Program-made: the position numbers and the translations under genes
NCBI RefSeq assembly: GCF_000189635.1
Contig: NW_002476227.1
Location: forward strand, 62,001-126,000
Source: Tetrahymena thermophila SB210
Lineage: Eukaryota; Ciliophora; Oligohymenophorea; Hymenostomatida; Tetrahymenidae
Length of the DNA: 64,000 nucleotides
Reading direction: 5' to 3'
Part shown: piece after piece, positions 3,081 to 57,644 of the stretch
How the letters are laid out: every line of letters starts with the position of its first letter
Position numbering within the stretch: position 1 is the stretch's first letter
The notes under the pieces: generated by a model
Database searches by the model: none
What the model was told of the DNA's origin: nothing
The model's input: only the letters and a program-made list of their open reading frames with translations

Positions 3081-4694
3081 TTACTATTTAAAAGAGGTTT
3101 GTTTAATTAGCTTACTTATTTACTTATGATTTTTTTGAGCAATATCTTAATTTAAAAATTGTTATAAAATAGATAAATTAATTGACAGATAATTAGAAAA
3201 ATTGATAAATTTTTCAATTTCATGTCATTTATTAAAATCTTATATTTCAAAACTTTTATTTATATAGTGTAAGAAATACACTTTTTCTAGTTCATTATTA
3301 TCATTTTTACTTTTAAGTATTAAATTCATCTCATAAAAAATTATAAATATTATTACTTCATTAACTTTAGTATTTTAATCCTGATTTCAAATATTTTTAT
3401 TCTTTTAAATTGTTCTATGGTTGGTTTCTAAGTAGTTATAATGATTATGAATATTATTATTATTATTTTATCAATATTTAGTAAAATAAATATTTGATTT
3501 CGGATAATATTATTAATTTTTTGAATAAAAAAATATAAATTGATACTTTATTTTTATATTAAAATATATGCTGAATAGTTAACTGAAATATTTTTTTGTT
3601 ATAAAAATCTGCAATTTACTGATTCAATTAAACTGTAATAAATATAATTTATTTGAAAAGAAAGAAACAGTTATTTTAAGATCCTCTATTAGAAATTCTG
3701 TTAAATAGATAAGCTTTTCTTCTTTAAATTATTTCATTTGAACAGTGATTTGTTAAAATAGAATATCATTTTTATTTCTCATTCTCCAATATTTTTCAAA
3801 TATTTGATTTAAATATCAGTTTGTATATTTGCTCTAAGTTTCTTCATTTATGCTACCTCTTTAAAAATTGAGCCACTATTAAGATTTTTCATTTTAAATT
3901 TCAGCTAATTTATCCTGAAAATCTGTGATTGAAACTTGATTGTTCTATATTCAAAAATAAATATGATATTATTTATTTTTTTAATTTTTTAAAATGACTT
4001 TTTAAAACTTTCTAGATAGTGTGCATGGAAAGATTCTATACAACTATTAGATTTTGTAAAGAATTTTTCAAAATTATTATCCTTTTATATAGCTGTTCCT
4101 GCATTTCAAATATCACCAACAATATTTTTGATATTTTAAATAATTATTAATATTTTTATATGTTGTTATAAAATTTAGTGTATGTAGCCTTGAAAAAGGC
4201 AGTACCCTATGTTACTATATATATTGATATAATTGTTTTTTTGTTTCTTTTTTTTACTATTTAATTGAATAAAATAGCTATTATAAAAATTTTAATTTGT
4301 TGCTCTTTATTTAAATATATTTTCTTGATTAATATAGACACAGAATCTATTCATAATATATAAATTTATCTTTTTTATGATTAGCTTTACTTATCTCTTT
4401 TATTTAGGTATAAAATTAAAAAAAGATATTTTATTTTTAATGATTTATTTATTTTTAAATTTCCACTCTAATTCATAAAGTTATTCATTCTAATCGTCAT
4501 CCGAATGTTCTTATTTGAAATATATCATGAGTTTAAGATTTAAATTTAATAATTTTATTTATTTTTAATGATATTAGAATCGATTACAAGTTTAATTGGG
4601 GAAAATAAATAGTTCTAATTAATTTATTGTTATTTTTATTGAATATAAAAAAATTATTAATCAAGAAAAAGGAACAAAGTAAAGATTTAAAAAA
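3081..4694. other. Intergenic spacer, partly duplicated, with a small hairpin
   Basis: No gene is seen. About 3081-3660 matches 7908-8565 and belongs to the duplicated block. A perfect short hairpin with a GAAA loop is at 4187-4200 and is listed separately. The rest is AT-rich sequence, presumably holding promoters for the divergent receptor and B-box-like genes. Confidence 0.6.
4187..4206 (+). other. Small hairpin (GCCTT-GAAA-AAGGC) followed by AGTACC
   Basis: A 5-bp perfect stem closed by a GNRA-type GAAA tetraloop occupies 4187-4200, followed by AGTACC. Nearly the same 19-20 nt recur at 59697-59715 with one base deleted from the stem. The surroundings are otherwise unrelated and very AT-rich. 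It may be a piece of a structured RNA or a dispersed repeat; the function is unknown. Confidence 0.4.
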
Positions 4695-6977: not shown

Positions 6978-7907
6978 TCAATTATCACATGTTTCTCCTT
7001 CTTCATAAATACTCGAAAATCCAGAAATAGAATCAGAATAAGGAGTTTTTTCTGATTCAATTAATTTAATTTCTGATTTTTCTAAACTATGGCAAAGATT
7101 TATTGAGAGAAATCCGTAGACTATTGAGTTAAAAAATCCATTTAATACTCCAAGCTGTAAGTCAAATGAATTTAGCCAATTAATTTAATCTCCATCTGTA
7201 ACTAACTCATAAAACCTTTCAAACATAATCCAAATCCATGAAATAATCAATATAGAGGGATATAGAATTAAATTTTTAATATTTACTAAATATACCTAAT
7301 CATTATTTATGTAGAATTAGTATAGGATTCTAAGTACAAAAAATAGTTCAAGAAATATAGTAGTAACAAAAGGTATAAATGACAATGCTATTTTTAAAAC
7401 CATCCCTGTAGTATCGTAAGATCCTTCATCATAGCTCTTTACAATTAAAAAGCACATCACATCTTTCAAGGGTTCAGTATGATCATAGTTGCCAGTTATA
7501 AGAGGTATTAAGGATATAATAAGAGGTAAAGCAATAGTAAATTTTGAGTAGTGTATTATTGGGTTTTTATATTTTATTTATTTTTTTCTTATGAAATATG
7601 AATACAGCACCCAAGAAATCACAAGAGAGCTAAAAAACATTCCATTTGTTGCTAATAGCTTTACAAATCCTTAAATCTTACAAACAACATCTCCAATTTT
7701 TGCATTTTAATCAATAAGAAGATATAATAAGGGACATAAGTAATCAAAGCTCAGTATGAAATCAAATATGAAGATCGAAAAAACTAACTTAAAGGCATAA
7801 GTCCTAGATTGTTAAGAGTAGAAAAAATAAAATATCAAAATTCCAGTTGATGTGCAAGATAAAATGGAACAAAGTAATAAAGAAATTGTTTCATATTTTT
7901 CACCCAT
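6978..7907 (-). CDS. Seven-transmembrane receptor-like protein, copy 2
   Basis: An intronless frame of 309 residues, the same length as copy 1 and very similar along its whole length, with the same seven hydrophobic segments and the same TM3 and extracellular-loop cysteines. The main divergence is at the C-terminus, where copy 2 ends in Glu-Glu-Gly-Glu-Thr-Cys-Asp-Asn. The start codon is chosen by alignment with copies 1 and 3, which all begin Met-Gly. The gene lies tail-to-tail with the complete B-box-like gene. Likely a G-protein-coupled receptor of the ciliate cAMP-receptor-like group; the ligand cannot be told from sequence. Confidence 0.8.
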
Positions 7908-9867
7908 TTCACTCTTTAAAAAGTTTGCTTAATTAAATTACTTATTTATATATGATTTTTTGAGGAATTTCTTTAATTTAAAAATTTATTAAAAAGTAGA
8001 TATATTGATTGACTGATATATAGATAGAAAAATAGAAAGACAAAGAAAAAAATAGAAAGATAGATATCAGAAAAAATCAAAACAATTTACAATTTCAGAT
8101 AATTAAATAAAAACCTTATATTTCAAAATTGTTATTTATAAAGAGTAATAAATACACTTTTTGGAATTAATTTTTATTTTTTTTTCTTTAAAGTGTAAGA
8201 TTCATTTCATCAAAAATTATAAATAAGATTACTCTTTTAATTATAATTTTTAACCATTATATTAAATATTTTTATTTTTTAAATAATATCTATGGTTTCT
8301 AAGTAGCCATAATCAATATGATTATTATTTTTATCAATATTTTTCTAAAATAAATATTTGATTTAAGCTAATCTTATTAATTTTTAGAATAAAGAAATAT
8401 AAATTCACTCTTATCATTTTAATATTTTATTTTTATATAAAATTATATTATTTATTTACCAAGCTAAAAAATTTACTGAGAAGTTTTTTTTTCTTTTAAA
8501 AATCTTCTATTTTCTGATTCAATAAAACTGTAATAAATATAATTTATTTGTAATGAAACAAAGTTTATTGTAATTTTATCTCTTTCTTATTAAAAATATC
8601 CTTTTAATAAACACATTTTTATTAGCTATGAATTCATTATTTATGAATTAATTTATTTATTCCTTTTATTAGTAATTATGTTATCCTTAGTTTCAAATTA
8701 GATTTGTGATTCTTGAATACTTATATATATTCTTCTTTTTCTTCTTTTTGAATTGTATCGCTTGATAAATTGCTTAATAATTATTCTTCTCAATGATTTT
8801 CTAGAAATTCTTTTAATATAACTTCTCTATCTGTTTATAAATTAATCCTAAATTTATCAAAGATATAGATAATATAAACCTTATTAAGAAATTTCTTTAA
8901 TTTTAAAAAGTTATTTAAACAAACAATTTTTATTTCTTTTTTACTTATTTTTTTATGTATTAGTACATTTTCTTAATTATTTAAATTAATCCCACTTTCC
9001 TTAAATGAACTAATTACTAAATTATATCAATCAAATCCCATGCTTCAATTGCTAATATTAATACACAAAAATTGCTTTATAATAATATCCTTTTTCTATA
9101 GATTATTTGTTTATAACCCTTATTAAGTTAACCCATCATTAAAAAGGTAATTTATTTTTTCTTCAATAGGCTAATAGAAAAATTAATGAGTTGAAGTAGT
9201 CTTTTTGCGCATGGAATTTTGATAGATAATTTCACTTTAAATAATTTTTTATTAGAAAATAAATTAATTTTATCTTTAGTTTCTTCAGATTTGTAGATTT
9301 GTATGATGAAAATGGATCTAAAATTAGAATTTGGATTTATTAAATTCAAATTACAATTTAAAAATAATTTTATCTAATCATTTTTAGGCTAACTTTTAAT
9401 TCATCCAATTTTCACTATTAATACTTACAAATAAATTTGTTGGTAAGTAAAATATGATATTACCTATTTCTAGAAAAAATAAATTTTAATATAAAAATTT
9501 AGAAATTGAATTTTAATTAATTTTAATTTTATATTATTTAAAAACAAATAAATAAATAAATAAATAATATTGGTAATTTATAATCTTAAGAAATTATAAC
9601 TAAATTTATTATTGCTCTTTTTTAGCTCATTTTATATTTTAATTAGGACTATATGCTTGAAATATTTTAAATACAAGTACTTTAATACTCCATATAAAAA
9701 TATATTAATCTCCAACCATATGTGTTAAAATGTTTTATTTGATTTATCTAAAAAATAATGATAATCAATATTTTTTATCCTTTTTAAAAACATTTTATGA
9801 TTTAATGTTAGAAAAACTTAAATAGAGGGTGATCATCAATTTTCTAAATTTTAGTATTTTATCTTAA
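7908..9867. other. Spacer: end of duplicated block, then non-genic AT-rich DNA
   Basis: Up to about 8565 the sequence matches the region upstream of receptor copy 1. Beyond that it is unique, apart from a decayed-looking minus-strand coding stretch at about 8640-9150 (separate entry) and a short (AAAT)n run near 9545-9570. Confidence 0.55.
8640..9150 (-). pseudogene. Possible decayed coding stretch, minus strand
   Basis: One minus-strand frame has protein-like composition (Lys/Glu-rich helical sequence such as TIQKEEKEEYIQVFKNHKS) but is interrupted several times, and no frame is open across it with a credible start. It looks like a degraded gene or gene fragment. I do not recognise the family, and chance composition in AT-rich DNA cannot be excluded. 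Confidence 0.25.
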
Positions 9868-9938
9868 GCACCGATGGTTTAGTGGTAGAATAGAGCGTTG
9901 CCATCGCTTTGACCCGGGTTCGATTCCCGGTCGGTGCA
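9868..9938 (+). tRNA. tRNA-Gly (GCC)
   Basis: A full cloverleaf can be drawn: a 7-bp acceptor stem (GCACCGA with TCGGTGC), D arm GTTTAGTGGTAGAAT, anticodon stem GAGCG/CGCTT with loop TTGCCAT giving anticodon GCC, and a T arm with stem CCGGG/CCCGG around TTCGATT, with discriminator A at 9938. It closely follows the eukaryotic tRNA-Gly(GCC) consensus and carries intact A-box and B-box promoter elements. There is no intron and no encoded CCA. A run of five T follows directly (9939-9943), a normal RNA polymerase III terminator. It is the only GC-balanced stretch for kilobases and the only RNA gene recognised here. Confidence 0.97.
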
Positions 9939-10884: not shown

Positions 10885-11811
10885 TCATTACACACTTATT
10901 TGATCCAGACTCTAAGCAAAGTGTTCTGATTATTTGCTTGATATTAAAGATTCATTTTATGACTTAGGTTATAAGTCAGACTATTTTTCTTTGTAGCATA
11001 TATTTAAGGAAAAAAATCCATATACTATAGAGTTAATAAATCCATTTAGCACTCCTAGCTATAAATCAAATTAATGTAACCAGTCTATAGACTATCCTCC
11101 AGTAACCAGCTCATAAAATCTTTCAAACATGATCCATATCCATAGCAGTATTAAAATAACAGGGTATAATATTAAGCTTTTTATATTTACTATATTTTAT
11201 TAATCCTTGTTTTTGTGGAAATCATACAATATTCTTATTACAAAAAATAGTTCAAAAGAAATAGAAGCAATAAAAGGAATAAATGATAGCACTATTTTCA
11301 AGATTATTCCAGTTGTATCTTTTGATTAACCATCATATTTTCTCACAATAAGAAAACACATAATTTCACTCATTGGCTCAGTGTGACCATAGTTATTTGT
11401 TATGAAAGGAATTATTGCTATTAAGGTAGGAAGAAAGAAAGTAAATTTACAATAGTGCAAAATCGGATTCTTATAACTTACATGTCTTTTTTTAATAAAA
11501 TAAGAGTATAGTACCCAAGAAATTATTAAAGAGCTAAAAAACATGCCGTTTGTTGCTAAAAGTTTTAAAAAGGCTTACAATTTACATGTAGAATCATTTA
11601 AATAAGCACTCGAATCTATTGCAAGATAGAGTATAGGAGTCAAGTAATTAAAACTTAGAACAAAATCAAAAAAAAATATTGGAAAAACTAGTTTAAAAGC
11701 ATATGTTCTAGAATATCTGTTAAATAAAAAATAAGCTATGAGGAATCCTGTTGAAATCCAAGATAAAAGTGAACATATTAATAATGAAATCATCTAGAAG
11801 TTATTGCCCAT
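10885..11811 (-). CDS. Seven-transmembrane receptor-like protein, copy 3 (diverged)
   Basis: An intronless frame of 308 residues (ATG at 11809-11811, TGA at 10885-10887). It aligns with copies 1 and 2 from the N-terminus (Met-Gly-Asn-Asn-Phe) to TM7, with the same seven segments, the same pair of putative disulfide cysteines and the TM7 motif NSIVYGF. It is clearly more diverged than copies 1 and 2 are from each other. The cytoplasmic tail is Gln/Ser-rich and unrelated to theirs. No B-box-like partner lies beside it, so it predates or escaped the pair duplication. Likely a GPCR of the same group; function not assignable. Confidence 0.8.
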
Positions 11812-13981
11812 TTTAATTTTAATAAATCTATTGAGTATTTGAAACCTAAAATTCAACTCTGACTGACTAGCTTTAATTAATTTTTCTACAAATTGATCCT
11901 TTTTTTGAAAAAAAAATTATAAATTTGATTTTACAATAATTTATTATAAAAATAATAAATTTAAGATGATTGAATTTAGTATTTGATCAATAATATTTAG
12001 TTGAATTATGTAAGTTGATCACCTCATTTATTATCACTTCAAACTTAACTATAATTTTTTTACGTATACTGATTAGTTAGTTAGTTAATCTAATTAAAAA
12101 TATCGAGGGGGATTTTTTCTTCTCTTAACTTGATTAGAATATCCTAATTAATCAAATAATAAATCATAAATTAAATATTATTCATTTAATTTAAATCAAT
12201 TTCCCACTGCTTTAAAGCTAATTGCATATAAGATGTCATTTTCTTTAAATTTGTTATTTTCCACATCCATTTTTTAACGAAAAAGTAACTTAATCAATCC
12301 TAGAAACAAAATAAAAAGAAGAGTAAAATCAAATGGCTACTAAATAAAATGAGAGACACATAAATTAAAATAAAGAAAATAGCATTTAACATACATATAT
12401 TATTTTCACTGACTTATAAATTTTTAAATGTTGAGATAGATTAAATAATTTTTATTTTAGAATGCAATCAAAAAATATACAATTAATTACTAAGGTAAAA
12501 GTAGTAGTAATATTTAATAATATAAACTTTTTACAAAAAATTTACATTTTCACAAATTTTTATCTCATAAACTATTAATAAAATAAAGCAGATAGCTTTA
12601 AATACTTCTATTTAATTAAGTTGTTTAAAAATTTTAAGATAAATAAATAAATTAAATAATAATTGTAATAATAACCTATTTTTTAATTTATTAAGTAAAT
12701 TAATAGATTTAAAATTTTCAATTTTTTAAGACTATTGAATAAGCTTTAAATAAAAAAGTTTAATATATAAAAAATATTTATTAGTTTTTTTGCTTTAAAG
12801 GATTTAATTCATAGCTATTGCCTCAAATAATTTTAATTTTTATAAAAAATAATTGCTATTAACAAAATAATAATCTTTAAAAAATTTTAACTTATTAAAA
12901 ATTGTTGTATTTTTTTTTTACTTATTTTGAAGAATTGTGTATGGTTTTAATTTAATAAAGTTTTACTTTTCTTTATTGCTTAAAAATTTTGTTTATTTTT
13001 TTAAAAAATTAGATACTTTTAGTATCCACATTAAATTGTAGATTGAATTATTATTATTCTATTAAAAATAAAACAAAAGAATAAGATGTTAGTGATAGAA
13101 GCATTTGATTCAATTTATTTATTTATTTAAAAAAAAAAAGTGAATTGAAGGAAAAGTTACGTTGAAGCTTACTATATCGTTATTAATTATTTCAAATTAA
13201 AAGTAATAAATTAGGAGTAGAAGAATAAATTGAATGAGTGCTTAGAATTTTTCATAGAATTTATTGAACGATTCTTATGTTTTTTTATATGGAGCTATTT
13301 TTTAATAAATCCTATAATCAATCAACCACCTCTACAAAGATAAAGATATAAATATTGTAAATATTAAAAGTAAATTTAGGAAGACCATGAGTTAAGATAA
13401 ATTAATTATTTAGCATGTTCATGGAAAAGATTTAATCAAGGGCATGAGAAAGATGCTCCTAAGTTTATAATGTAAAAAATAAAAGAAATATTTTATGAGC
13501 TATTGAAAGTGTATGGTCAATCATAAAACATAATATCTGGAATAAAATATTAGATATAAAAAATTAAGAATTATTATTTGAAATGGTTTTTATTTGATTT
13601 ATTAGAAATAAAAATTGCAATAAATAATAGATATGATTTGTGATAATGAAGGAATACATTGGGAAAGAAGGAGGTGCATTAAACATTTGATTTATTAAAA
13701 TATATTTATTTTATTATAGTTACTACTTTTTTATGGCTAAACTAAAAGACTTAAACCACTCTTTTTTTTAATTTTTTTTTATTAAAATATATAATGTATA
13801 GTCTTATTTATAAATTCTTTAAGTTAATTATATTTATTGTAGGGTTAAATGTTTCTAATAAATACATAATAAAACAAAAGAAATATATTATAAATATAAT
13901 AAAATTTAATTTTAAGTTGTATTCTGAGTGCATTTATATGTGCGAGTATTTCTATTCTATTCTATTAGTAATTTAATTGTT
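11812..13981. other. Long AT-rich spacer
   Basis: No intact gene is seen apart from a short damaged-looking frame at 13234-13506 (separate entry). The part next to 13982 may hold the unresolved 3' end of LRR-A. Confidence 0.5.
13234..13506 (+). pseudogene. Short protein-like frame, probably a decayed gene fragment
   Basis: A 90-residue frame (ATG 13234, TGA 13504-13506) begins MSAQNFSQNLLNDSYVFLYG and keeps protein-like composition to about codon 70. After that the good coding signal continues in a different frame (a stretch reading GHEKDAPKFIMQKIKEIFYE). This suggests a host gene fragment that has lost its frame, or an undetected intron. I do not recognise the family. Confidence 0.3.
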
Positions 13982-14033
13982 ACTTTTTAAATTATAAAAA
14001 AATATATATAATTAATTAGTTAGTTATAATTTT

Positions 14034-16980
14034 AGAAGGAATAAATGAAGAAAAAATAAGAAATAATAAGAAAAAATAAAAAAAGCATATGTTGAAAATA
14101 AAAAAAGGAGTTAAATTAAGAAAGGTAGAAGAAAAATAAACACAAGTTAAATAAAAATAAAAATAAAAGTAAATCAAATAAAAAGCTAATAAACAAATTA
14201 AAAGAGCTATATTGTTTTAAATTCAATTTTATTAGTAAAAATATCACAATCCTAAACAAAAAAACTGAATTTACTAAAGATAAAGTGTCAAATTTGTTTG
14301 AGAGATTAGTGCAATTTGCTAAACCAAAACCTAAGCCTAATGCATCTTAATCGCCAATTTTATTGTAACTTTTGAAATATTGAAATAAAAATATATAATA
14401 AATTAGTAATTTAGAAGGAAAAAATAGAAGAAAAATAAAAGCAAGTTCAATAAAAAAGAAAAGTAAATCAAATAAAAAGCTAATAACAAATTAAAAGAGC
14501 TATACTATTTTAAATTCAATTTTATAAGTAAAAATATAACAATCAAAAACAGTTAAATTTAATTTACGCAAGATTAAGTGTTAAATTTGAGAGATTAGTG
14601 CAATTTACTAAACTAGAACTTAAGCATGATACACCAATTCCACCAATTTGATTAAAACTTTTTAAATATTGAAGAAAAAATATATAATTAATTATTTATA
14701 ATTTTAGAATGAAAAAATTGAATTAATAAATAATAAAAGCAAATATTGAAAATAAAAAATGATTTAACTTTAGAAAGATAAAAATAAACACAAGTTCAAA
14801 ATAATAAAGAAAAAGAAAAGTAAATAAAAATCTAATAAACAAATTAAAAGAGCCATATTATTTTAAATTCAATTTTATAAGTAAAAATATGACAATCCAA
14901 AACAAATAAACTTAATTTACTAAAGATCAAGCATCAAATATGAGAGATTAGTGAAATTTGCTAAAGCACCACTTAAGCTTGATGCACCTTAATCACCAAT
15001 TTGATTGCTTCTTTTTAAATTGAAGAAAGAAAATAAATTAATTAGTTATAATTTTAGAAGGGATAAATGAGAAGGGGGGGGGGGGGGGGGGGTTCTTCAA
15101 AATAGTCAAAATATTTTTTTTTTCGATCAAATTGAAAGAGTCATTTAATTAAAACAAATATTATTTATTAAAAAAATTCAATAAAAATCAAACAAATATA
15201 TTTAAAAAATCGTCAGATTTTAAAATTAATCTTTGACAAAAAAAAAAATTTTTTGTATTTTAATTAATAAATCATAAAAGCAAATATTGAAATAAAAAAA
15301 TTAGTTAAATTAAAAAAAATAGAAGAAAAATAAACTCAAGTTCAATAAAAGAATTAAGAAAAGTAAATCAAATAAAAAGCAATAAACAAATAAAAGTAGT
15401 TATATTGTTTTAAAATCAATTTGATAAGTAAAAATATAACAATCCAAAACAAATAAACTGAATTTACTAAAGAAAAAGTGTTAATTTTGAGAGATTAGTG
15501 CATTTTGCTAAAGCGGAACTTAAGCTCGATACACCTCTATTACGAATTTAATTGTTACTTTTTAAAAATTAAAGAAAAAATATAAAATAATTAGTTTTAA
15601 TTTTAGAAGGAATAAATGAAGAAAAAATATGAAATAATAAAAAATGAATTAATAAATAATAAAAGCAAATAATGAAAATTAAAATATGAGTTAAATTAAG
15701 AAAGATAGAAGAATAATAAATAAAAATTCAAAAAAAAAAAAGAAAAAAGAAAAGGAAATCAAATAAAAAGCAATAAACAAATTAAAAGAGTTATATTATT
15801 TTAAATTCAATTTTATAGTTAAAAATATCACAATCCAATACAAATAAACTAAATTTACCGAAGATCAAAAGTCAAATTTGAGAGATTAGTGAAATTTGCT
15901 AAAGCAGAACTTAAATCTGATACACCTTTAATACCAATTGAATTCTAACTTTTTAAATATTGAAGAAAAAATATAAATTAATTAATTATTTATAATTTTA
16001 GATGGAATAAATGAAAAGTAAATATTAATTATAAAAAATGGGTTAAATTAAGAAAGGTATAACAAAAATAAACACAAGTTTAATAAAATAAAAAAAAAGT
16101 AATCAAATAGAAAGAAAGTTAATAAACAAATTAAATGAGCTATATCGTTTTAAATTCAATTTTATAAGTAAAAATATCACAATTCAAAACATTTAAACTG
16201 AATTTACCCAAGATGAAGTGTCAAATTTAAGAGATTAGTGCAATTTGCTAAAGCAGAACCTAAGCTTGATGCACCTTTATTCATAATATGTTTATCACTT
16301 TTTAAATATAGAAGAAAAAATATATAATTAATTATTAATAATTTTAGAAGGAGAAATGAAGAAAAAATATGAAATAGTAAAAAATCAATTAATAAATAAT
16401 AAAATCAAATATTGAAAATAAAAATCAGTTAAATTAAGAAATATAAAAGAAAAAAAAAAAAAAATATAAAAAAGAAATTTAAATCAAATAAAAAGCAAAA
16501 AACAAATTAAAAGAGCTCTTTTTTTTTAAATTCAATTATATAATTAAAAATATCACAATCCAGTATAAATAAACTGAATTTACCTAAGATCAAGTGTCAA
16601 ATTTGAGATATTAGTGCATTTTAATAAAGCAGAATATAAACTTGATTCAGCTTCATCATTAATATAATTGCCACTTTTTAAATATTGAAGAAAAAATAAA
16701 TGAATAATTAGTTATAATTTTATAAGGAAAAATGAAGAAAAAATATAAAATTATAAGAAATAAATTAATAAATAATAAAACTAAATATTGAAAATAAAAA
16801 AATGAGGTAAATTAAGAAAGATAGAAGAAAAATAAACGCAAGTAAAATAAAAAAGAAAAAGAAAAATAAATCAAGTAAAAATTAAAAAAATAAATTAAAA
16901 GAGTTTTATTATTTTAAACTTAATTTTATCAGTAAAAATATCACAATCCAAAATTAATAAACTACTTTTATCAATTAAAA
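14034..16980 (-). repeat. Tandem exon+intron modules of LRR-A (7 full plus 1 degenerate)
   Basis: Seven LRR exons lie at intervals of about 290-390 nt (one interval is about 550 nt). Each is set in intron sequence that is itself repeated; the anchors GTAAATT at the 5' splice site and TTTAAAAAG at the 3' splice site recur each time. An eighth unit at about 16720-16990 has kept intron sequence but lost its exon. The same module, inverted, builds LRR-B at 30.9-32.8 kb. Confidence 0.9.
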
Positions 16981-17316
16981 GTTTTATAACAAAAAAATAA
17001 ATAAAAAATAAGTAGCGAATTTAAAAAATTTAAAATGAAAAGTAAGTTAAAATAACTAAAACAACATTTGTAAATAAAATTTACTAATTTAGGGGATAAT
17101 TTCTATTAGAAAAATAAAATTTTAAATGAACTGAAAGTTAAATATATAAAAAATATTAATTATTAAAATATACCTCAGATTAATATAAAGAACCTAATGA
17201 GATTAAAGTGAAGAGTTTAAAAACTTTTTACATTAACAAAAATAAATTTAAATTATATTTATAAAAAAATAAATAATTACTTCTTCTAATTTGTTGTAAT
17301 ATTTAATCTATTGCAT
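14275..17316 (-). CDS. LRR-A: leucine-rich-repeat protein, one repeat per exon (3' end unresolved)
   Basis: Exon 1 (17281-17316) encodes MQQIKYYNKLEE and exon 2 (17174-17193) a short linker. Seven LRR exons follow at 16584-16673, 16208-16297, 15859-15948, 15468-15557, 14921-15010, 14568-14657 and 14275-14368. Each repeat fits N-x-I-G-x-x-G-x3-L-x3-L-x2-C-x-N-L-x2-L-x-L-x-L, the ribonuclease-inhibitor-like LRR common in ciliates. Six exons are exactly 90 nt with phase 2 at both ends; the last is 94 nt, an insertion of four bases that shifts the frame, so the 3' exon is uncertain (candidate splice acceptor at 13983, frame open to about 13.5 kb). The first two exons and their introns match LRR-B, fixing the start. 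One ancestral first repeat is missing: intron 2 joins directly to a later intron. Likely a protein-binding horseshoe; no signal peptide or TM seen. It may be a gene in decay. Confidence 0.7.
15074..15092 (+). repeat. Run of 19 G
   Basis: An uninterrupted G19 tract (C19 on the transcribed strand of LRR-A) inside the intron between the exons at 14921-15010 and 15468-15557, in DNA that is otherwise over 80% A+T. It is followed by about 175 nt (15093-15270) absent from the other modules. It may be real or a sequencing/assembly artefact. Confidence 0.9.
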
Positions 17317-29399: not shown

Positions 29400-30485
29400 T
29401 GTATAAAATCCTCTACATAAATAAATAAATACATACATACATTATTCATTAATATATTGAAATATATTTCAAAAAATTAAGGTGATCAATTATTTATTTG
29501 TTTGTAATGTATAATTGATTATTAGATTTAAAGATTGATATATACATAATACATTTTTTTTTTGTAGTTTATTTACAAAAATTTTTTTTAAATTTGTAAT
29601 AATTAGAAATTTAGATATTTTTAAATTTTTTTTATCTGAAATTAATTTTCAATTATTATTTCGAAATATCAATCAATATTCAAATCAAGCCAGAAAAACT
29701 AATTCTCTTTTTTTGATTAAGCATTAACCTGATGATATAAACACAACTAGCGAGATCGACCAAAATTAAATCAATATAATAAAAAATAAATAAGAAAAAT
29801 AATATAAAATATTTATGTTAATTTTTTATTTAATTTTAAAAATAGAAATATGAAGTAAAATAAATTTAATAAATACATAAATAAAACTCAAATTAATTTA
29901 AAAAAATATCTAAAGAAAATATTAGTTTTGCTTGCTAAACATTCTTTCAAACTAAATATTAATTTAAAACTAAATAAATAAAACAATTTATACAGGATTG
30001 AGCGATTAATCCCTATTGGTTAACTCGCTAGTTACTTACAAATTAAAAAATCTTTTATTAATTATAATTTTTTAGCTTTTATTGATGTTTGAATAAAAAT
30101 GTTTCTTTGTAAAACATTTAATTTTTTACAATTTTATTCAAAATTTAATTGTTTAAAAATAAAAATATTTACTGCCAATATTTATTGATTAAGGATTCCC
30201 TTAAATGCTGATGATAAAAATGTTAAAAATTAAAATAATATTTCAAAAATTTCTATGAAATTAAAAATAAACCATTTAAAAATATTTTTTTTCAAACAAA
30301 GTTTCCTTACTTTTGACTAAAAAGTTTATCAATGTGATAGCGTCTCTTTGAGCGTGAATTTAGTTGGAAGTCTATCATTTCCATTTATTATCTTTTAACT
30401 ATTCTATTTAATATGATTGATCTTATATGCTTAAAATTAATTAAATTTCCATAAATTATTATTCAATATTTTACAAGAAAAAAAA
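29400..30485. other. AT-rich spacer with a possible small inverted-repeat element
   Basis: No gene. AACTAGCGAG at 29745-29754 is matched by its reverse complement at 30024-30033, listed separately as a possible element. Confidence 0.5.
29745..30033. mobile_element. Possible MITE-like element with 10-bp perfect inverted ends
   Basis: AACTAGCGAG and CTCGCTAGTT bound about 289 bp. Similarity extends imperfectly inward (both ends carry an ACCAA motif just inside). The interior is AT-rich with no coding. These two short G+C-containing ends stand out from the spacer. No target-site duplication was identified. Confidence 0.35.
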
Positions 30486-33065
30486 ATGATGGAATAGAAT
30501 AACTATTTCGAAGATCTAGAAGAAGTAAATATTTATTTTATTATCAATAAAATTTAAATTTATTTTTATTAATAAAATAAGTTTTTAAGATCTTCAAATT
30601 TATCTCATTAGGTTCTCCATATTGATACGACATAAAGGTTTATTTGATTTATTATTATTAATGTTTTTTATATTTAATTATCATGTGATTTGCTATATTA
30701 ATTTTCTAATAGAAATTATCATGCATTTTCATTCATTTTTATATCTACAAATATTTTTTAATTATTTTAACTTAATATTAATTCAATTTTCATCATGATT
30801 ATTAATTATTTATTTTTTTTATTTGAATTTTTCTTCATTTTTTCCTTTAAACTAACTTTATTTTTTCTTCAATATTTAAAAAGCGAAAATTAAATTGATG
30901 AAATTGGTGCATCAGGATTAAGTTCTGGTAAAGGAAAATATACTAATCTCTAAAATTTAACACTTAGTCTTGAGTAAAATGAGTTTATTAGTTTTGGATT
31001 GTGATATTTTTCAATATAAAATTGAATTTAAAGCAATGTAACTAACTCTTTTATTTAATTTTTTGGCTTTTTATTTGATTTTTTTTTCTTATTTTTTTAT
31101 TTTGCTTGTGTTTTTTTTTAAATTATTTGCTTGTTTGTTAATTTAACACTTTTTTCATTTTCAACTTTGCTTTTATTGTTTATTGATTTCTTATTATTTC
31201 ATATTATTTCTTCATTTTTTCCATCTAATTAACTAATTTACTCTTTATTTTTTCTTTAATATTTAAAAAGGTATAAGTATATTGATGCTATTGGAGCATC
31301 AGATTTAGGTTCTGGTTTGTTAAAGTACACTAATCTATCAAATTTGACACTTAATCTAAGGTAAAGGCAATTTATTTGTTTTTGGATTGAGATATTTTTT
31401 GATTTTTTTATAAATTTAAAATAAATAACTTACTTTTTTCATTTATTTATAAGTTTTTTCTTTTTCTTTATTATGCTTATGTTTTTTATTTATTTATTTA
31501 TTTCTTTCTTTATTAGTTTGTTTTTTTTGTTGTTGTTAATTTAACACATTTTTTCATTTATTTTCAATAATTTCAACTTTTTCTTTTATTATTAATTCAT
31601 TTCTTAATTTTTTCTTCATGTTTTCCTTCAAACTAATTAATCAACTATATATTTTTTCTTAAATATTTAAAAAGTTATAATTAAATTGGTGATAAAGGTA
31701 CATCAAGCTTAGGTTTTGGTATAGGAAATTGCTCTAACCTCTCATATTTAGAACTTTATCTTCAGTAAAAACAGTTTATTTGCTTTGAATTGTGATATTT
31801 TTGAATTTAAAACAAAATAATTTTTATTTATTTCATTGCTTGCTTGTTAATTAAACTCGTTTTTTAATTTTAAATTTTTAATTTTATTATTAATTAATTC
31901 ATTCACTTCTTATTATTACAAGTTTTTTTTTTCCAATTTTTTCTTCTAACTAATTATATAAATTTTTTTCTTCAATATTTAAAAAGAGGAAATTAAATTT
32001 CTGCAATTGGTGCATCAAGTTTAAGTTCTGATTTAGGAAAGTGTACTAATCTCTCAAATTTGACACTATTTCTTTGGTAAAAACCATTTATTTTTTTTGG
32101 ATTGTGATATTTTTCAATATAAAAATGAATTTAAAATCCTCTAACTAACTCTTTTAATTTATTTATTTGCTATCTATTTGATTTATTTTTGTTTTTTTAT
32201 ACTGCTTGTGCTTTTAGTTATTTATTTGTTTTATTTGTTAATTTAACATTTTTAATTTTCAACATTTTTTTTATTATTTATTAATTTCTTATTATTTCAT
32301 ATTTTTTCTTGATTTTTTCCTTCTAACTAACTAAGTAATTCTATATTTTTACTTCTATATTTAAAAAGCTATAATTCAATTGGCGATTAAGGTGCATTAG
32401 CCTTAGGTTTTGGTTTAGTAAAGTTCACTAATCTCTCAAATTTGACACTTCTTCTATAGTAAAAACAGTTTATTAGTTTTGGATTGTGATATTTATGAAT
32501 ACCAAAATGAATTTAAAGCAATATAAAAAAATCTTTTAATTTATGTTCATTTATTTGATTTATTTTTGATTTCTTATTTTATTCTATTTGAGTTTTTATT
32601 TATTTAATTTTTTGTTTGTTTTTTAATTAAACTCATTTTTTCATTTTCATCATTTCTTTTATTATTAATTAATTACTTACTATTTCATAAGTAATTCAAT
32701 ATTTTTTCTTAAATATTTAAATAGGGGAAATTAAATTCATGCAAACGGTGCATCAGGCTTAAGTTCTGGTATAGGAAAATGCACTAATCTCTCAAATGTG
32801 ACACTTAATCTTGAGTAAAAACAGTTTCTTTATTAGGGGTTTCGATATTTTTTGAATTTAAAAATAAATTAAAAAAAATATAGCTAACTCTTTAAATTTA
32901 TTTAGTTTTTTTATTTATTTTTCTTTTTATAAATTTTTATTGTCTTAGCATTTTTTTACTTATTGATTATTTTATTTTACAATTTGATTCTATTTATTTA
33001 TTTTTAGTGATTTACACTTACTTATAATAAAAGAGAAAACTCTGCCTTTGAATCATAATAAATGA
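30486..33065 (+). CDS. LRR-B: leucine-rich-repeat protein with six 90-nt repeat exons
   Basis: Exons: 30486-30524 (MMEQNNYFEDLEE), 30612-30637, then six LRR exons at 30884-30973, 31271-31360, 31675-31764, 31987-32076, 32369-32458 and 32725-32814, and a last exon at 33008-33065 (220 residues). All six LRR exons are exactly 90 nt and phase 2 at both ends. A typical repeat reads YNQIGDKGTSSLGFGIGNC then SNLSYLELYL. This is the RI-like LRR with a conserved Cys-x-Asn-Leu. Introns between repeats (222-314 nt) are near-copies of each other, with the same 5' end (GTAAAA) and 3' end (ATATTTAAAAAG). The protein is likely a small cytosolic binding scaffold; no catalytic, signal or TM segment is seen. 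LRR-A is an inverted paralogue 13 kb away and LRR-C is a longer, older one. The last exon is the least certain. Confidence 0.82.
30884..33007 (+). repeat. Tandem exon+intron modules of LRR-B
   Basis: Six units of about 310-400 nt (exon to next exon), each a 90-nt LRR exon plus an intron with shared blocks (for example TTTTGGATTGTGATATTT near the 5' end and a TTATTATTTCAT block near the 3' end). The same blocks, reverse complemented, make up 14.0-17.0 kb. Confidence 0.9.
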
Positions 33066-33421
33066 AAATGAAATGCCTTAAATCAAGAAAATTAGTAGTT
33101 GCAGATTTAGCATTTTAATGATAAAAAAGCACTGAAAAAGGGACTAATAAACATAAACATATTTGAATACTAAAATATTTATTTACCATAAATCCTCATA
33201 AATTCTCACAAGCATAAATTTTCACCATATTTTGTGAATATTTATAAATATTTCAAATTAAAAAATTTTATTCCTAAATTTGTTTGACCTTTAATTAATG
33301 AAGATTGGTAGTATATTTATTTTTTATTGATTATGTACGTTTATACCGATGATAAATAAACTAGTTATTTTATATAATATAAATATGAACATTAAATTTT
33401 ATAATAGTATTTTTTATATTT
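33066..33421. other. Convergent intergenic spacer
   Basis: Short AT-rich spacer between LRR-B and the minus-strand coiled-coil gene; nothing else seen. Confidence 0.6.
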
Positions 33422-49609: not shown

Positions 49610-50939
49610 TCATGCTTATTAAGTTGAATTAGAATAAAGCTTTGAAACTATTTAGTTATAATCTCTGAAAGGTAAATGAGAACGACGTTACAACCAATTT
49701 CTTTCATGCCATCTACAACCTTACGAGTCTATAAAATGAAGTGCATATGCATGACGAGGTTTAGAAGATTCATTTTGTTTTGAAAAATGAACAAAATCTC
49801 CATGGAAAATAAACATGGATCCCCTTTTTACTTCGATAGGAACTGCTTTTTCAATATCATACTATTTTTCTTGGCCTTCTAGATAAAATTAATCGCCTTT
49901 TTCTGTTCTATAGCAAAAGTGAGTAGTTGGATTTTTATGACTACCTTAAATACCCCACATACATCCGTTTTCAATAGTAGCATCATGTAAAGCAAACCAA
50001 AATCCTATAGCGGAGGATTAAGGTACTGTTATTAAGAAAGTATTATCTGTATGAGGAGGAACCTATTATAATAATAAGTAATTAAATACAAAAGGTGTTC
50101 AAAAACTGTATTTTTATAGACTTAAAATATCTAATGAGGAATATTTTGTTTGATTGAAAGGTTTTCTTTTTACTTACTGTTGTAAAAAAGACTATTTACT
50201 GATAAAAAATTAATTAAATATTTTGATATGAGTAAATAGTCGAGTTAATAAATTAATCATTTTCCCAATCAATCAGGAGGAATAAAATTAATTAAAAATA
50301 ACACCTGAATATTATTCAAAATAGAAATATTAGTTTTTTTAAAGCAATGAAGATATTATTTTATTTTTAACAAATTTTGATGCTAGTCATTAAAAAATTA
50401 AACTAAATTTATAGTTAATTATTTACAGGAGTACCAACTCTTTGGTTTTTGAATATGTACATGCTTTAAATACATTATGGTTTTTGGTATCCCAACTGAT
50501 TGAGAATGTATTACAAAAGTGGTCTATAAGTGAATCTTTCAAAAACTGGATCTAGATCGTGTAAAGCATGTCCCATTTTATTTAATACTTAATCCTCAGG
50601 AACTGTGAGCTTGTTATTTTCATCGAAGACATTTGGTTCAAAGAAAAATCCTATTTAATCTCCTGAATCTATAAAGCTCTTAGCTGTTTCTACTTCGCCT
50701 TAGCTAAAGCAAACTCTATTCTCCATAAAATTATTACTTTTCATAATCTTAGAGCATTAGCTGATGAGCTCGTCAATCATTTACTCTGAGACAACATTAT
50801 GGACAAGTGTACAACCATTTTATTAAAAATCTTTAATGTTATTTTCTGTGAATATTTAGTTAAAAGGAATTGAAGAAAATCTGTATATTTGCTAATTGAA
50901 GAGATATTTGTTATTGGTTAAAAATCTTTTTAACATCAT
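49610..50939 (-). CDS. Phytanoyl-CoA dioxygenase-like protein, copy A
   Basis: Two exons (50427-50939 and 49610-50062) with a 364-nt intron give 321 residues. This is a non-haem Fe(II)/2-oxoglutarate oxygenase of the PhyH family, closest in pattern to PHYHD1. The iron ligands are H175 and D177 (PPHTDN) and H263 (GDFVHFS); R274 (PRHAYALHF) fits the 2-oxoglutarate anchor. Other family motifs are GFFFEPN near residue 98, [13 protein letters not shown] near 123, and [17 protein letters not shown]. The N-terminus (MMLKRFLTNNKYLFNQQIYR) is basic and lacks acidic residues, which suggests a mitochondrial presequence; location is inferred. Three paralogues lie head to tail on this strand with the intron at the same codon (after GTP), showing local duplication. 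The substrate is unknown. Confidence 0.93.
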
Positions 50940-52601
50940 TTTTCAATTTTTAATTAAATTATTTATTTCTTTATTTTTAGCCTGTTTTTTGAAGAAAAAA
51001 ATATTTATTTATAAAAAATAAATAATATCTAAGCTAAGTTTTGTTTTACTTTAATTGCCAATTTTTAAACAAATATTTAATTATTTTTCTCTTCCAAATA
51101 GAAATTATGTATGATTATGACTTGGTATGAATAAACCTGACATAACTTTTTATCAAAATATTACATTATTTATTAGCATTAAAATTTTAGAAAGATACTC
51201 AATAGTATACATTGAATTTCACTTATTAACTATTAAAATATTTGTTTCTATAAATTTCATTTGCAAGATAAAATAAATACTTTCTAAAAATTTCTTTTGA
51301 CTTATCTCCAAACAAAGTATAATTGAATGCATGTATCTAATAGAATGATTAAATTAATACTCTAAATGCTAAAAAATCTAATTTTTTGCTGACTACTTTG
51401 TCAATAGTTATTTTTTAATATTTGATGACACACTGTATATATTCTATTTTAAGATACTACTACTCTATTAAAGCCACAATTTTAATTTTCAAAAAAAATA
51501 TTTTAAAAATTTTTTGCATTCAAAATTTGAGAAAAAAGTTATAGAATAGAAGAATACACAGTTAGCTTAATTATTTAAAACATGTCAATTCTAATACAGT
51601 TGCAAAAATTGATTGTTGAAAGATTGATTAATAAAAACGATAATCAAAATTAAATTAGATTTGTTTCTCATTTAAAAATCTTAAACTAAATAAAAATTTA
51701 CAACTTTAAAAAGCAAGTAAAATATTTAAAGGCATGTTAAAGTCAATACATTTTTTAAATCTTAATATATATTTGATACTTTTAGCAGATAGATGCTTAT
51801 TTGAAGACACATAAAATACACTTCTTTATATTAATATTTAAATATTAGTTTATTTAACTTAAGATAACTATAATGAAAATTGTTGCTAGGTATCATTTAT
51901 TTATTATTACTAAAATAATTTTAGAGTAAATCACTTTTATTAATACTAACTAAAGAGATCTACTTAATTCTGTTGCTTGTGCATTATTATTTTTATTTAG
52001 GTGAATTATAAAATTTAACTCAAATTAAAGCTTAGATTTAAGGAAAACTGCAAAAAAATTTTAGAAGTTTATCAAAAAATTTATTAATTGTTTGTGAAAA
52101 CGATTCTTTTTTTTATTCAGAAAAAAAATATTTTAATAATAGTAAATAAATATAAAAACTTTGATATTGACTTTTCTCACTAAAATAATAAAAATAATAG
52201 TAAATCTAAATTAGTAGATTGAAATAATACTCGAATAATTATTTAAGCTACCTCATCACAATTTTTATTTATTTAAATAAGCTGATTATCAATCTTTTCT
52301 TAAATTCTTTAAATATTTTAATTGTAAAAGTGGGATTTGCCATTAAGGAAAAGAATATAATTTATAAAATGCACTGATCTCTAAATAATAAAACTCTACA
52401 TTTCGTAATCTTTGTTTTTAAGTAGCTTTATTTAGATGAAACTTAATTTGAATGAAAAAACAATTTAAATTAATTTTAATATTTTTTAAATTTTACAATC
52501 TTTATAAATATATTAATTAATTTACATATTTATTAATTATTTTATTTAACTAATTCAACTATCAATCAGCCATTCATTTACTTATTTTAAGTTTTAATTT
52601 T
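50940..52601. other. AT-rich spacer
   Basis: No gene or repeat recognised between oxygenase copy A and the small frame at 52602-52799. Confidence 0.55.
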
Positions 52602-53238: not shown

Positions 53239-54538
53239 TCAGACAGGATAAAGATTGGATATAACCTAGTTATAATCTCTGAAAGGTAAATGGGGACGAC
53301 GTTATAGCCAATTTTTTTCATGCCATTTATGCCCTTAAGAATCAATAAAATGGAGGGCGTACGCATGACGAGGAAGGTTAGACTAATTATGTTTCGATAG
53401 GTGAATATAGTCACCATGGAATATAAATACAGATCCTCTTTTAACTTCTATTGGTACAGCTTTTGTTAAATCATATTTTTTTTCTTAACCAACATATATG
53501 AGTTCATTTCCTATATCACTTCTGTAACAAAAATGAGTAGTTGGATTTTTGTGACTACCTGGAATACCCCACATACATCCATTTTCAATGGTTGCATCAT
53601 GCAAAGCAAACCAAAATCCTACTGCTGAAGATTAAGGAACAGTAATCAAAAATGTATTATCAGAATGAGGAGCTACCTAATAATTTTATAAATAGAAATT
53701 AAGTATTAATATTAATCTACATTCTGAATATTATATTTATTGAGAAGATTATTAGATTTTTGATTGCTATTTGATCTTATAAGGAAAAAATAATAATGAT
53801 TTTTAATATTAAGAAGGGCAGTGTGGTAAAAGTCAAATTTTGATTTTTTTTCTCAACAAAAATACATTCAAATTTATTAAAATATCATAAATTTAAATTT
53901 GGTATATTATGAGATCTCTTAATATAAATTTTCTAACTTTTCTAATTATAAAAAAAACAATTAATTACAAACTATATCAATAAAGTAAGATCAAATCAAA
54001 AATATTAGTATTATTATTTGCTTACAGGCGTTCCAACTTTTTAGTTTTTGAAAATATACATGCTCTGAATGCATTAAGGCTTCTAATATCCAAGCTATTT
54101 TAGTATATATTACAGAAGCGGTCTGTAGCTAAACTTTTCGAATACTGGATCTAAATCGTGTAATGCATGACCCATTTTATTTAGTACTTAGTCTTCAGGT
54201 ACTTTTAGATTATTATGCTCATCAAAGACATTAGGCTCAAAGAAAAATCCAATTTAATCTCCTGAATCTATGAAGCTCTATGCAACTTCTAACTCACCCT
54301 TACTAAAGCAAACCCTTTTCTCTTTAAAATTATTGCTTTTCATTATTTTTTTGCATTAATTAATGAGCTCCTCAATCATTTCTTCTGTAACTACATTATG
54401 AACAATTGTTGCTCCATTTTCTTAAAACTAATTTAGGTGTTCTTCAGTAAAAATTTAATTTAAAGGCTTAAACGAAAATCTTTAGAGCTACAAATTGCAA
54501 ATATATTTATTGCAATTTAAAAATTTTTTTAGTATCAT
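53239..54538 (-). CDS. Phytanoyl-CoA dioxygenase-like protein, copy B
   Basis: Two exons (54026-54538 and 53239-53676) with a 349-nt intron at the same codon as copies A and C; 316 residues. The iron ligands are conserved: His-x-Asp in APHSDNTF at the start of exon 2 and the distal His in GDYIHLS; the 2-oxoglutarate Arg is in PRHAYALHF. The C-terminus is shorter than in A and C, ending [14 protein letters not shown]. The N-terminus ([20 protein letters not shown]) is again basic and presequence-like. It is more similar to copy C than to copy A (shared KKVGTP, IPGSHKN and QRRPHLPF). Intact, probably an active Fe/2OG oxygenase of unknown substrate. Confidence 0.93.
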
Positions 54539-56395
54539 TTTAGATATTTCTTTTGAATATAACGCTACTAATTGTTTTTACTTTTTTAATTTATCTTTAT
54601 TTAAAAAAAGTAATTTAACACTTTAATCATCAGTGACTTTGAATATCTCGAAATATTTTTTCTATAAACAATATAACAATCAGCTATATTAATTAAGTAA
54701 TTAATTTATTTTTATTGTAAGAATTGTTTATAATTTTTTTACATTTATTACGATAAGAAATTGCAAATTATGATTTTTTTTATCATATATTTATTGACTT
54801 CTACTATTTTGTTATTAGAAATATTTGATCAAAATCTCAGCTACAAAAAATAAACTCTGATTTAAATTTATTATTGAAAATAACTAAAAACTTATAATAA
54901 TGAAATCCATCAAAATATTACAAAATATACATTTTATCATAGAAAATTTTAATTATTTTAAAGATAAAATTTTACTTTAAAAAAAAATAAAATATTTCTT
55001 TTATCAATGTAACTTAATGATTTAAAACAAATTTGAACTTTATATTATAACATAATTATTTTGTGCTTAATGTCTAATTTATAACAATTTTAAATTATAA
55101 TTTTAAAAATGAACTAAAAATAAGTATTTATAAAATTAATTGTTTTAAGTTAATTAATGGGCCATGGCATTTGTATGGTGTATAGGGGGGATTTTTTTCA
55201 TAGTAGTATTTATAGGGATAATAATAAAAATTATATATAAATATAATAGTGGCTATTATAGGGACATTAAATCCCTCTATGAACCCCTATAAAAATCATC
55301 GCCCTAATTAATTATAGTATCAATTGCTAACCTTATATTAGTTTAATTTATAAAAACTTAATTGATGATTCTATTTCAAAATATTCATAAAAAAATCATT
55401 AATTTAACTAAAGAGCTATGTTATTAATTGATTATCTCTTTATGATAAAAGACTAAAAAGTGGTTAAGTTTTTAATTAAAAGGTTCATCCTTTATTTAAT
55501 TTATAAGATTTTTGTTTTAATTTGCTGTATAATGTTTAAAAATAATAAAAATTATTTTGTAAGTATGTTTTTACAAGATGAATTACTAATCTTATTTAGT
55601 CATTTTGATAATTGAATACTATATAAAGAATCCTTTATTGGATGATTGAAATTAATAATTAATTTAATGTAATTAAGTCTTTGATCTGATAAATTCGAAA
55701 TTTATATTCAATTTTTTTAAAAAATTCATATTAAAATAAGATTTACACTTCAAAATTAATAATCCGATTAATTTTGTTACAAATTATTTATATCATTAAA
55801 ATGATCAAAAATAGTAACAAGATTTGTAATATTATTATTTATAAATTCTTTTTTTAAATAAATTGGTGTATAATTATTTTAAAATATTTTACTAAATAAA
55901 TACAAATAATTTATTACTCTCATCAAGTTTCTAAGTTAAGTTTAAGCATAAAAAGATTATTTCACAGTTATCCTGAAAAGAAATATTATTCAATCAAAAA
56001 CATAATAACATGTAAATATTCATTTTTAATTAAATAATTATTTGTTTCAAATCAAATAATCATACATTCATTATACTCATCTTATTTTTACTCTTTTTCT
56101 TTTTTTTTGCAATAAATATTGATGAAGCAGTATTTTGCTTGCGATCAGTTCTAACTTTAAATATTTTTGTTTCAAATAAAACTTCTATTTAAAAAATTCA
56201 ATGTTTTACTTTTTTTAAAAAAATTTTAAGTTTATTATAATAAATTACTTTAAATTCTACATTTTTTTATATAAGCGAAAACAAATATTTTATAACAATT
56301 CAATTTTTATTCAATCATTTAATATTAACCATAAAAAAAATTCTAAAATAACTAAAAAAAATTTTTAATTTATTTTTTTAACAATATTCAGCTTC
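54539..56395. other. AT-rich spacer with a MITE-like inverted repeat
   Basis: No gene. Holds the inverted-repeat element at 55151-55315 (separate entry). Confidence 0.55.
55151..55315. mobile_element. MITE-like palindromic element flanked by TAATTAAT
   Basis: The left end reads TAATTAATGGGC followed by ATGGCATTT, TATAGGGG and TTTCATAG. The right end, read on the other strand, gives GGGC, then ATGATTTTTATAGGGG and TTCATAG. The element is about 150 bp, relatively G-rich and largely self-complementary, with GGGC/GCCC termini and the same TAATTAAT on both flanks, a possible target-site duplication containing TTAA. No coding. It fits a non-autonomous DNA element; a TTAA-type (piggyBac-like) origin is speculative. 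Confidence 0.6.
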
Positions 56396-57644
56396 TCAAG
56401 CTTAAATGCTTGAACCAGATTAAAGATTAGAGACAACTTAATTATAATCTCTGAATGGTAAATGAGGACGACGTTATAGCCAATTCCTTTCGTGCCACTT
56501 ATATCCTTATGAATCTATGAAATGAAGGGCATAAGCATGGCGTGGAAGACTAGACTAATTATGTTTAGATAAGTGAATATAATCTCCATGGAAGATAAAC
56601 ATAGATCCTCTTTTAACTTCTATAGGAACAGCTTTTGATGCATCGTATTATTTTTCTTTACCAGTATAGAATAGTTTATCTCCTGTATCATTTCTGTGAT
56701 AAAAGTGAGTAGTTGGATTTTTGTGACTACCTGGAATACCCCACATACATCCGTTTTCAATTGTTGCATCGTGCAAAGCAAACCAAAATCCTAGAGCTGA
56801 AGATTGAGGTATAGTCATCAGAAATGTATTATCAGCATGAGGAGCAACCTATCAATTAAAATTATTATATTTATTTCAATTTAAATCATATTTTATTTTA
56901 AAAATATCTTCTTTAAACAACTAATCCTATTATTTTTTTATTTATGTTAGGCAGAAAGAATATTGTGGTTTTAATTACTCTTAATTGAGTGGTGATAATA
57001 AAATTAATAAAGATAATATTGATGATAGATAGTACTTCTATATTTATATAATGAAGAATTGAAAATTTACTATCATTTAAATACATAAATAAAGTAAGAT
57101 TAAATCAAAAATATTTGTATTATTTATTGCTTACTGGTGTTCCAACTTTTTAGTTTTTGAAAATGTACATGCTCTGAATGCATTAAGGTTTCTGATATCC
57201 AAGCTATTTTAGAATATATTATAGAAGTGGTGTATAGCTAAACTTTTCGAATACTGGATCTAAGTCATGCAATGCATGACCCATTTTATTGAGTACTTGG
57301 TCTTCTGGTACTTTCAAGTTATTGTGTTCATCAAATACATTTGGTTCAAAGAAAAACCCAATTTGATCCCCAGAATTTATGAAGCTCTAAGCAACTTCTA
57401 ACTCACCTTTACTAAAGCAAACCCTTTTCTCCATGAAATTATTGCTTTTCATTATAGTTTTGCACTAATTAATAAGTTCTTCAACCATTTATTCCGTAAC
57501 AGCATTGTGAACAAGTGTTGCTCCATTTTCCTAAAAATCATTAAGATGATGTTCAGTAAATATTTAATTTAAGGGCTTAGAAGAAAATTTATAAAGTTGT
57601 TAATTGTTCAAAAACTTAAAAGAGCTTAATAGTTTTTTTATCAT
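56396..57644 (-). CDS. Phytanoyl-CoA dioxygenase-like protein, copy C
   Basis: Two exons (57135-57644 and 56396-56848) with a 286-nt intron at the conserved position; 320 residues. His-x-Asp iron ligands are in APHADNTF, the distal His in GDYIHLS and the Arg in PRHAYALHF, so all expected PhyH catalytic residues are present. The N-terminus [20 protein letters not shown] is basic and presequence-like. The exon 1 region [11 protein letters not shown] and the exon 2 region [16 protein letters not shown] match copy B closely. The intron shortens from A to C (364, 349, 286 nt) and shares sequence at its 5' end with copy B (GTAAGCAA) but not with copy A. This suggests an older A versus B/C split followed by a B-C duplication. 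Confidence 0.93.

Follow-up and report, generated by a model that had tools for sequence, protein, structure and literature searches.

Excess divergence of exon-junction codons among relatives of a predicted Tetrahymena thermophila gene built from 90-nt leucine-rich repeat exons

Why would a ciliate gene be built from exons of a single fixed length, and what varies the repeats that these exons encode? The question is raised by a 64,000-nucleotide (nt) stretch of the Tetrahymena thermophila SB210 genome (RefSeq assembly GCF_000189635.1, contig NW_002476227.1, positions 62,001 to 126,000 of the forward strand), referred to here as the window, in which a predicted gene at 30486-33121 carries six consecutive 90-nt exons, each encoding one leucine-rich repeat (LRR). 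The locus is a member of the Tetrahymena '90-bp exon array LRR' family, seen here in the macronuclear genome, and as the architecture has already been published (Xiong et al. 2019, PMC6564038), the importance of the locus lies in the cause of a pattern found at the codons beside the exon junctions of its relatives. The reading that we favour, and regard as probable when taken as a whole, is that the gene belongs to this family, that its modules are recombined through their introns in the germline, that the residues at its exon junctions change fast, and that the encoded protein serves in recognition.

The gene model opens with a 39-nt exon at 30486-30524 (plus strand; ATG, MMEQNNYFEDLEE), supported by paralogs with similar first exons, and a 56-nt exon at 30582-30637, the two together ending in phase 2. 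The upstream region at 30440-30485, part of the head of the gene, is common to paralogous LRR genes, as established by sequence matches and by an alignment of 30 loci, that of the window included. The six LRR exons were predicted on the same strand at 30884-30973, 31271-31360, 31675-31764, 31987-32076, 32369-32458 and 32725-32814, separated by introns of 297 nt (30974-31270, GTAAAA...TTTAAAAAG), 314 nt (31361-31674), 222 nt (31765-31986), 292 nt (32077-32368) and 266 nt (32459-32724, acceptor TTTAAATAG), and the last exon (33034-33121) carries the tail ...MKMKCLKSRKLVVADLAFQ and a TGA stop at 33119-33121. Each of the six 90-nt exons was directly preceded by TTTAAA[A/T]AG and directly followed by GTAAA. 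A first-pass annotation of this DNA had claimed an unbroken run of six exons at 30884-32814, each exactly 90 nt long, running from phase 2 to phase 2 and encoding one LRR, and all six were present. When joined, with TAA and TAG read as glutamine, the predicted gene has an open frame of 240 amino acids, and in-frame joining was obtained only with the 90-nt exons taken as phase 2 to phase 2; the modules are predicted to be frame-neutral, as that annotation had also proposed, with every LRR exon 90 nt long, phase 2 on both of its sides and the joined frame intact.

The protein would comprise a family head of approximately 31 residues, six 30-residue LRRs of the ribonuclease-inhibitor/NOD-like type and a short family tail. 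A Pfam scan returned LRR_6 over the cut-off, with no non-LRR domain over the cut-off and no match to NACHT or NB-ARC/NBS. Searches against the PDB matched 11 distinct sequences, the closest being 5irl/5irm, labelled 'Uncharacterized protein', which we take to be NOD2, followed by further LRR proteins, among them dynein regulatory complex subunit 5 and radial spoke protein 15. The product may form a small LRR solenoid in which exposed strand residues bind varying ligands, and residues 28, 30 and 1 of the repeats, which straddle the exon junction, are predicted to point out of the beta-strand.

Tandem exons of exactly 90 bp, separated by phase 2 introns, are described from ten Tetrahymena species in the main text of Xiong et al. 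2019 (PMC6564038), where 1,500 of the 1,874 LRR genes of T. thermophila are given as having at least one 90-bp exon. The youngest group distinguished there, group III, has an intron length peak of approximately 257 bp in T. thermophila, and group II has introns of approximately 56 bp without repeat units. The structural features of the family that are open to checking were all found at the window locus, namely 90-bp tandem exons, phase 2 introns, one LRR per exon and occurrence in T. thermophila, along with long related introns (222-314 nt here, median 263 nt over 112 units) and a variable exon number, and no difference of kind from the family as described in that text was found. With its long related introns the window gene is most like group III. 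The claim that no named system of this kind exists in ciliates was wrong, the family having been described in that paper.

Genome-wide counts, made in one assembly (101 Mb in 445 contigs, the contig of the window being 191 kb), indicated how common the architecture is. In agreement with the species, the exonic parts of a telomerase exon from this assembly are identical to PDB 6d6v, the telomerase of T. thermophila. The pattern TTTAAAAAG-N(75-105)-GTAAA occurred 5743 times against 1196 for its reversed control, and the narrower TTTAAAAAG-N(89-91)-GTAAA 4147 times against 122; among the matches listed for the latter, 97 of 100 were of exactly 90 nt. Across 54 loci, overlapping ones being counted twice, an exon of exactly 90 nt was obtained for 184 of the 191 acceptors that had a donor downstream, and a further 23 acceptors had no donor. 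Two exon-model scans took only lengths divisible by three, so that off-length exons in them are uninformative on frame keeping. The head (query 30440-30640) was matched in at least 39 other places at 81-86% identity (40 of 538 candidates scored), with two weak reverse matches besides; 20 of 30 head loci fitted a simple exon rule, and 19 of those 20 ended in phase 2. The tail was recovered at nine other loci, in all of which a KC-K-KRLV-like sequence could be read in the same frame after an AAAAG acceptor. Nine heads could be followed into their arrays, and the six of them with a tail also in view carried 4, 6, 7, 9, 10 and 14 modules. Repeat number, which had been said to change rapidly, does differ between paralogs that share head and tail (4-14), but no recent gain was seen in the window gene.

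Shuffled AT-rich introns are already approximately 72% identical and percent identity alone is a poor measure, hence intron relatedness was scored as z over dinucleotide shuffles, with splice sites trimmed. The mean aligned identity of the five inter-LRR introns of the window gene was 82.3% (80.3-84.5%), compared with 72.3% for the shuffles; all ten pairs exceeded the shuffles (z 6.6-24.0), and repeat units were detectable in all ten. In an array on the minus strand of the window, all ten intron pairs had z > 4, as did 24 of 25 pairs between that array and the window gene. A third LRR gene of the window gave z > 4 in none of its 21 intron pairs and in none of 35 pairs with the window gene. The likeness of the introns is well above that of shuffles, unlike that in the third LRR gene (10/10 pairs vs 0/21), and the sequence blocks that they had been said to share are real, but the claim of near-identical introns was ruled out by an aligned identity of only 80-85%. 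Exon distance was correlated with downstream-intron distance over 97 sampled units (r = 0.53, with none of 500 permutations as high), which indicates that exon and downstream intron travel together, and the suggestion that the two form a common unit is upheld. Xiong et al. proposed ectopic recombination as the mechanism, with the REP retrotransposon possibly helping (PMC6564038, main text), and our observations are consistent with germline crossing-over between similar introns that would add, drop and reassort whole repeats; the frame would survive such gain or loss because one repeat equals one 90-nt exon flanked by phase 2 introns.

The window gene itself was compared with loci sampled from the head and tail matches, from the first-listed pattern matches and from a few longer stretches. 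Ungapped exon identity within its array was 73.9%, against a mean of 76.4% between sampled loci, and within some other arrays (L008 and L012) it reached 0.91. All five window units with a downstream intron had both their nearest exon relatives and their nearest intron relatives, among the 97 sampled units, in other loci, and no window unit exceeded an intron identity of 0.899 with a sampled unit of similar length. Unlike the arrays reaching 0.91, the window gene is, judged by these comparisons, a diverged member of the family without sign of recent module gain, and its introns appear to resemble the family at large and not one another in particular. Recent amplification of the window gene was considered and rejected, its nearest relatives among the sampled units being in other loci and its exons no closer to one another than exons of different sampled loci.

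That exons within the window gene are no more alike than exons of different loci is one of several observations that suit neutral birth-and-death, under which arrays would grow by easy intron recombination, the scaffold would be kept for folding and the variable residues would be unconstrained, with no part in recognition. The minus-strand array includes a module of 94 nt that breaks the frame and another that is truncated, relaxed constraint is described for species-specific LRR genes in the main text of PMC6564038, and codon-position diversity was flat, at 0.258, 0.288 and 0.255 in 12 window exons and 0.227, 0.247 and 0.233 over 176 exons. As codon-position diversity carried no selection signal, a test by site class was adopted.

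Over the 176 exons, entropy was highest at residue 1 (3.70), residue 30 (3.30, from 123 junctions) and residue 28 (3.03), followed by residue 7 (2.78), and the leucines and Asn 2 were nearly invariant. Residue 30 is the junction residue, and residues 28, 30 and 1 correspond to the nine nucleotides beside the exon junctions. Module pairs were then picked by downstream-intron identity alone, each unit being used once, from the 146 units that are followed by an intron. At an intron identity of 95% or above (20 pairs), differences amounted to 2.7% in the intron, 2.4% in scaffold codons, 7.2% in the other 81 exon nucleotides (scaffold included) and 46.7% in the nine junction nucleotides, the corresponding values in random pairs being 13.9%, 6.9%, 16.4% and 57.9%. 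The junction difference exceeded the intron difference in 20 of 20 pairs, and the ratio of the two was 17.5 (bootstrap 13.1-23.8), or 16.2 (bootstrap 11.4-27.0; 8 pairs) without the 30 loci that had been fetched by an exact interior word; at an intron threshold of 90% it was 11.0 (35 pairs), or 9.5 without the interior-word loci (13 pairs). Residue 1 differed in 18 of the 20 close pairs, residue 30 in 15, residue 28 in 14, Asn 2 in three and Leu 25 in none, and codons 3, 6 and 7 were likewise raised.

Unconstrained codons are expected to differ at the intron rate, whereas the junction nucleotides differed at 17.5 times that rate (0.467 vs 0.027, 20 pairs). The adjoining downstream intron was quiet, at 0.022 in its first 30 nt, beside residues 28 and 30 (0.067 in the last 15 nt of the upstream intron), and scaffold codons were conserved, with nonsynonymous (N) differences at 0.018 against 0.043 for synonymous (S) ones. 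These values argue against neutral birth-and-death, which we consider unlikely. Simple hypermutability of exon edges is also unlikely on the 3' side, because the downstream intron adjoining that edge stands at only 0.022; on the 5' side the case against it is less firm.

A number of points weigh against the favoured reading. The upstream intron, which played no part in choosing the pairs, differed at 0.067 in the 15 nt that adjoin residue 1. The entropies of mostly the same exons were already known when the nine junction nucleotides were picked, and the ratio may be somewhat inflated as a result; 12 of the 20 close pairs lay within one locus, and the loci are no random sample. No module of the window gene, or any other module of the window, occurred in a close pair. 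The surface placement of residues 28, 30 and 1 derives from the LRR consensus and not from a structure, and both the splice sites and the expression of the window gene are predicted. The main text of PMC6564038 gives Ka/Ks < 1 for 90-bp exon genes. In our own comparisons the dN/dS of codons 28 and 1 alone fell from 1.74 in 20 pairs chosen by exon closeness to 1.03 in 51 such pairs, that of the loop/helix class was also above 1 (1.44 and 1.36, respectively), and the synonymous sites of codons 1 and 28 were raised as well (7.3 of 18.5). In the same two sets of pairs, dN/dS was 2.80 and 1.65 for residues 26, 28 and 1, and 0.13 and 0.30 for the scaffold. Within the window gene itself the difference was 0.61 for the nine junction nucleotides and 0.22 for the remaining 81, though its modules are too old for the intron clock.

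Simple selection is further opposed by the form of the changes, many of which replace two or three bases of a variable codon. Among the 30 pairs with an intron identity of 92% or more, the divergence of codon 1 came close to that of random pairs, two or three of its bases having changed in 18 of 30, and codons 6-7 behaved like a block, being unchanged in 53% of these pairs and carrying at least three changes in 30%. Stepwise point mutation under selection is a poor fit, because synonymous sites are raised, codons change at several bases at once, dN/dS drops as pairs are added and the loop/helix class also exceeds 1. The composition of codon 1 was recorded separately: over the 146 units it has 48% G+C, with C as third base in 67 of 146, in an AT-rich genome (the window has approximately 16-30% G+C), and in the neighbouring codon 2 the third base is T in 143 of 146.

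Real alternatives are homogenised introns with protected old codons, or the exchange of short blocks between exons. Under the former, a case of concerted evolution, conversion would homogenise introns and exon interiors whilst selection guards old junction variants, so that the codons would be old, not fast. The frequency of synonymous and multi-nucleotide differences at the variable codons, and the near-random divergence of codon 1 in the 30 close pairs, speak for this account; conversion tracts would, however, have to end on both sides of single codons, only a few nucleotides from a homogenised intron, and selection would still be required to guard those codons. We hold concerted evolution to be a possibility that deserves to be taken seriously, and as it concerns the origin of the variants it is compatible with a recognition role. 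It is rather improbable, in our estimation, that the few codons beside each junction are re-randomised in the germline by a dedicated process, for instance local hypermutation or a templated exchange of short stretches that draws on the pool of thousands of exons. Were this true, a single-celled eukaryote would possess an actively diversified recognition repertoire.

On the favoured reading, recombination through introns would supply whole repeats and the Leu/Asn scaffold would be kept, with residues 28, 30 and 1 diversifying very fast in relatives. The junction excess in close relatives fits, and hints at, diversification of a recognition surface, for which the likeliest role would be to recognise ligands that vary, for example on food bacteria or other cells. 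The first-pass annotation had described a repertoire-like locus, and this is made more plausible by the hypervariability of junction codons in relatives, but it was not demonstrated for the window gene. A word search of the main text of PMC6564038 found no concentration of change at junction codons. If junction codons do outpace the introns of their own modules, the function of the 1,500 genes with 90-bp exons counted in that text would narrow towards recognition, and the diversifying force would be directly testable in an easily grown cell.

The diversity would be heritable, having accumulated over generations in the germline and not somatically. The variable lymphocyte receptors of lampreys likewise carry their diversity in LRR modules, and are assembled somatically from gene fragments. 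Human NLRP3, which has NACHT and pyrin domains, is another gene open to comparison. One of its LRR exons is skipped in documented transcripts (PMC6642158), a precedent which, with the frame-neutrality of all modules of the window gene, would suit programmed or somatic variation, in which module number or content varies by macronuclear copy, by strain or through exon-skipped transcripts. A word search of the main text of PMC6564038 returned no mention of alternative splicing, and we judge such variation to be very improbable here. NLRP3 and other modular LRR genes share with the window gene the strict exonic modularity of the LRR domain, but their LRR exons, as described in PMC6642158, measure 171 bp compared with 90 nt here, and the window protein has no NACHT match. 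Plant NBS-LRR resistance genes, in the account of PMC3113787, may resemble the present family in gene conversion between paralogs, and differ in their NB-ARC/NBS domain, for which the window protein has no match; Ka/Ks was measured there against synonymous sites, whereas own-module introns served as the clock here.

The minus-strand array (13893-17316), recognised from its sequence, begins with the same kind of head as the window gene, in exons at 17316-17281 and 17223-17174, followed by six 90-nt exons between 16673 and 14568. Its seventh module (14368-14275) is 94 nt long, with an extra CAAA that breaks the frame, and its last module, from 13982, is truncated, departing from the LRR pattern approximately 20 nt in; the 3' end of this array looks decayed. 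Its intron donors read GTAAAT, compared with GTAAA[A/G] in the window-gene array. The intron between 15468 and 15010 contains a 19-nt G homopolymer (15074-15092; C on the minus, or gene, strand) and measures 457 nt, against 259-301 nt for the other four introns of the array; its extra stretch, unlike the other introns by eye, might be the remnant of an inserted element.

The third LRR gene (61307-64000, plus strand) is more diverged and extends beyond the end of the window. Of its eight modelled modules, one measures 81 nt and the other seven 90 nt, with an exon identity of 52.8%. Its assignment to group II as described in PMC6564038 was withdrawn, for it shares the absence of repeat units, but its introns are 144-346 nt long, compared with approximately 56 bp in that group.

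Elsewhere in the window, three frames on the minus strand (2151-3224, 6978-8066 and 10885-12018) are alike by eye and resemble seven-transmembrane receptors; Pfam 7tm_1 fell below the cut-off in the first two and had no match in the third, and the sequence around the first two has the look of a segmental duplication. Three tandem genes on the same strand (49610-50942, 53239-54679 and 56396-57899) appear dioxygenase-like by eye, and PhyH (PF05721) was found in both of the frames scanned (53239-53832 and 57105-57899). The plus strand carries a tRNA-Gly (gcc) at 9868-9938 and, at 1319-1737, two TATC microsatellite tracts within a 232-nt direct duplication.
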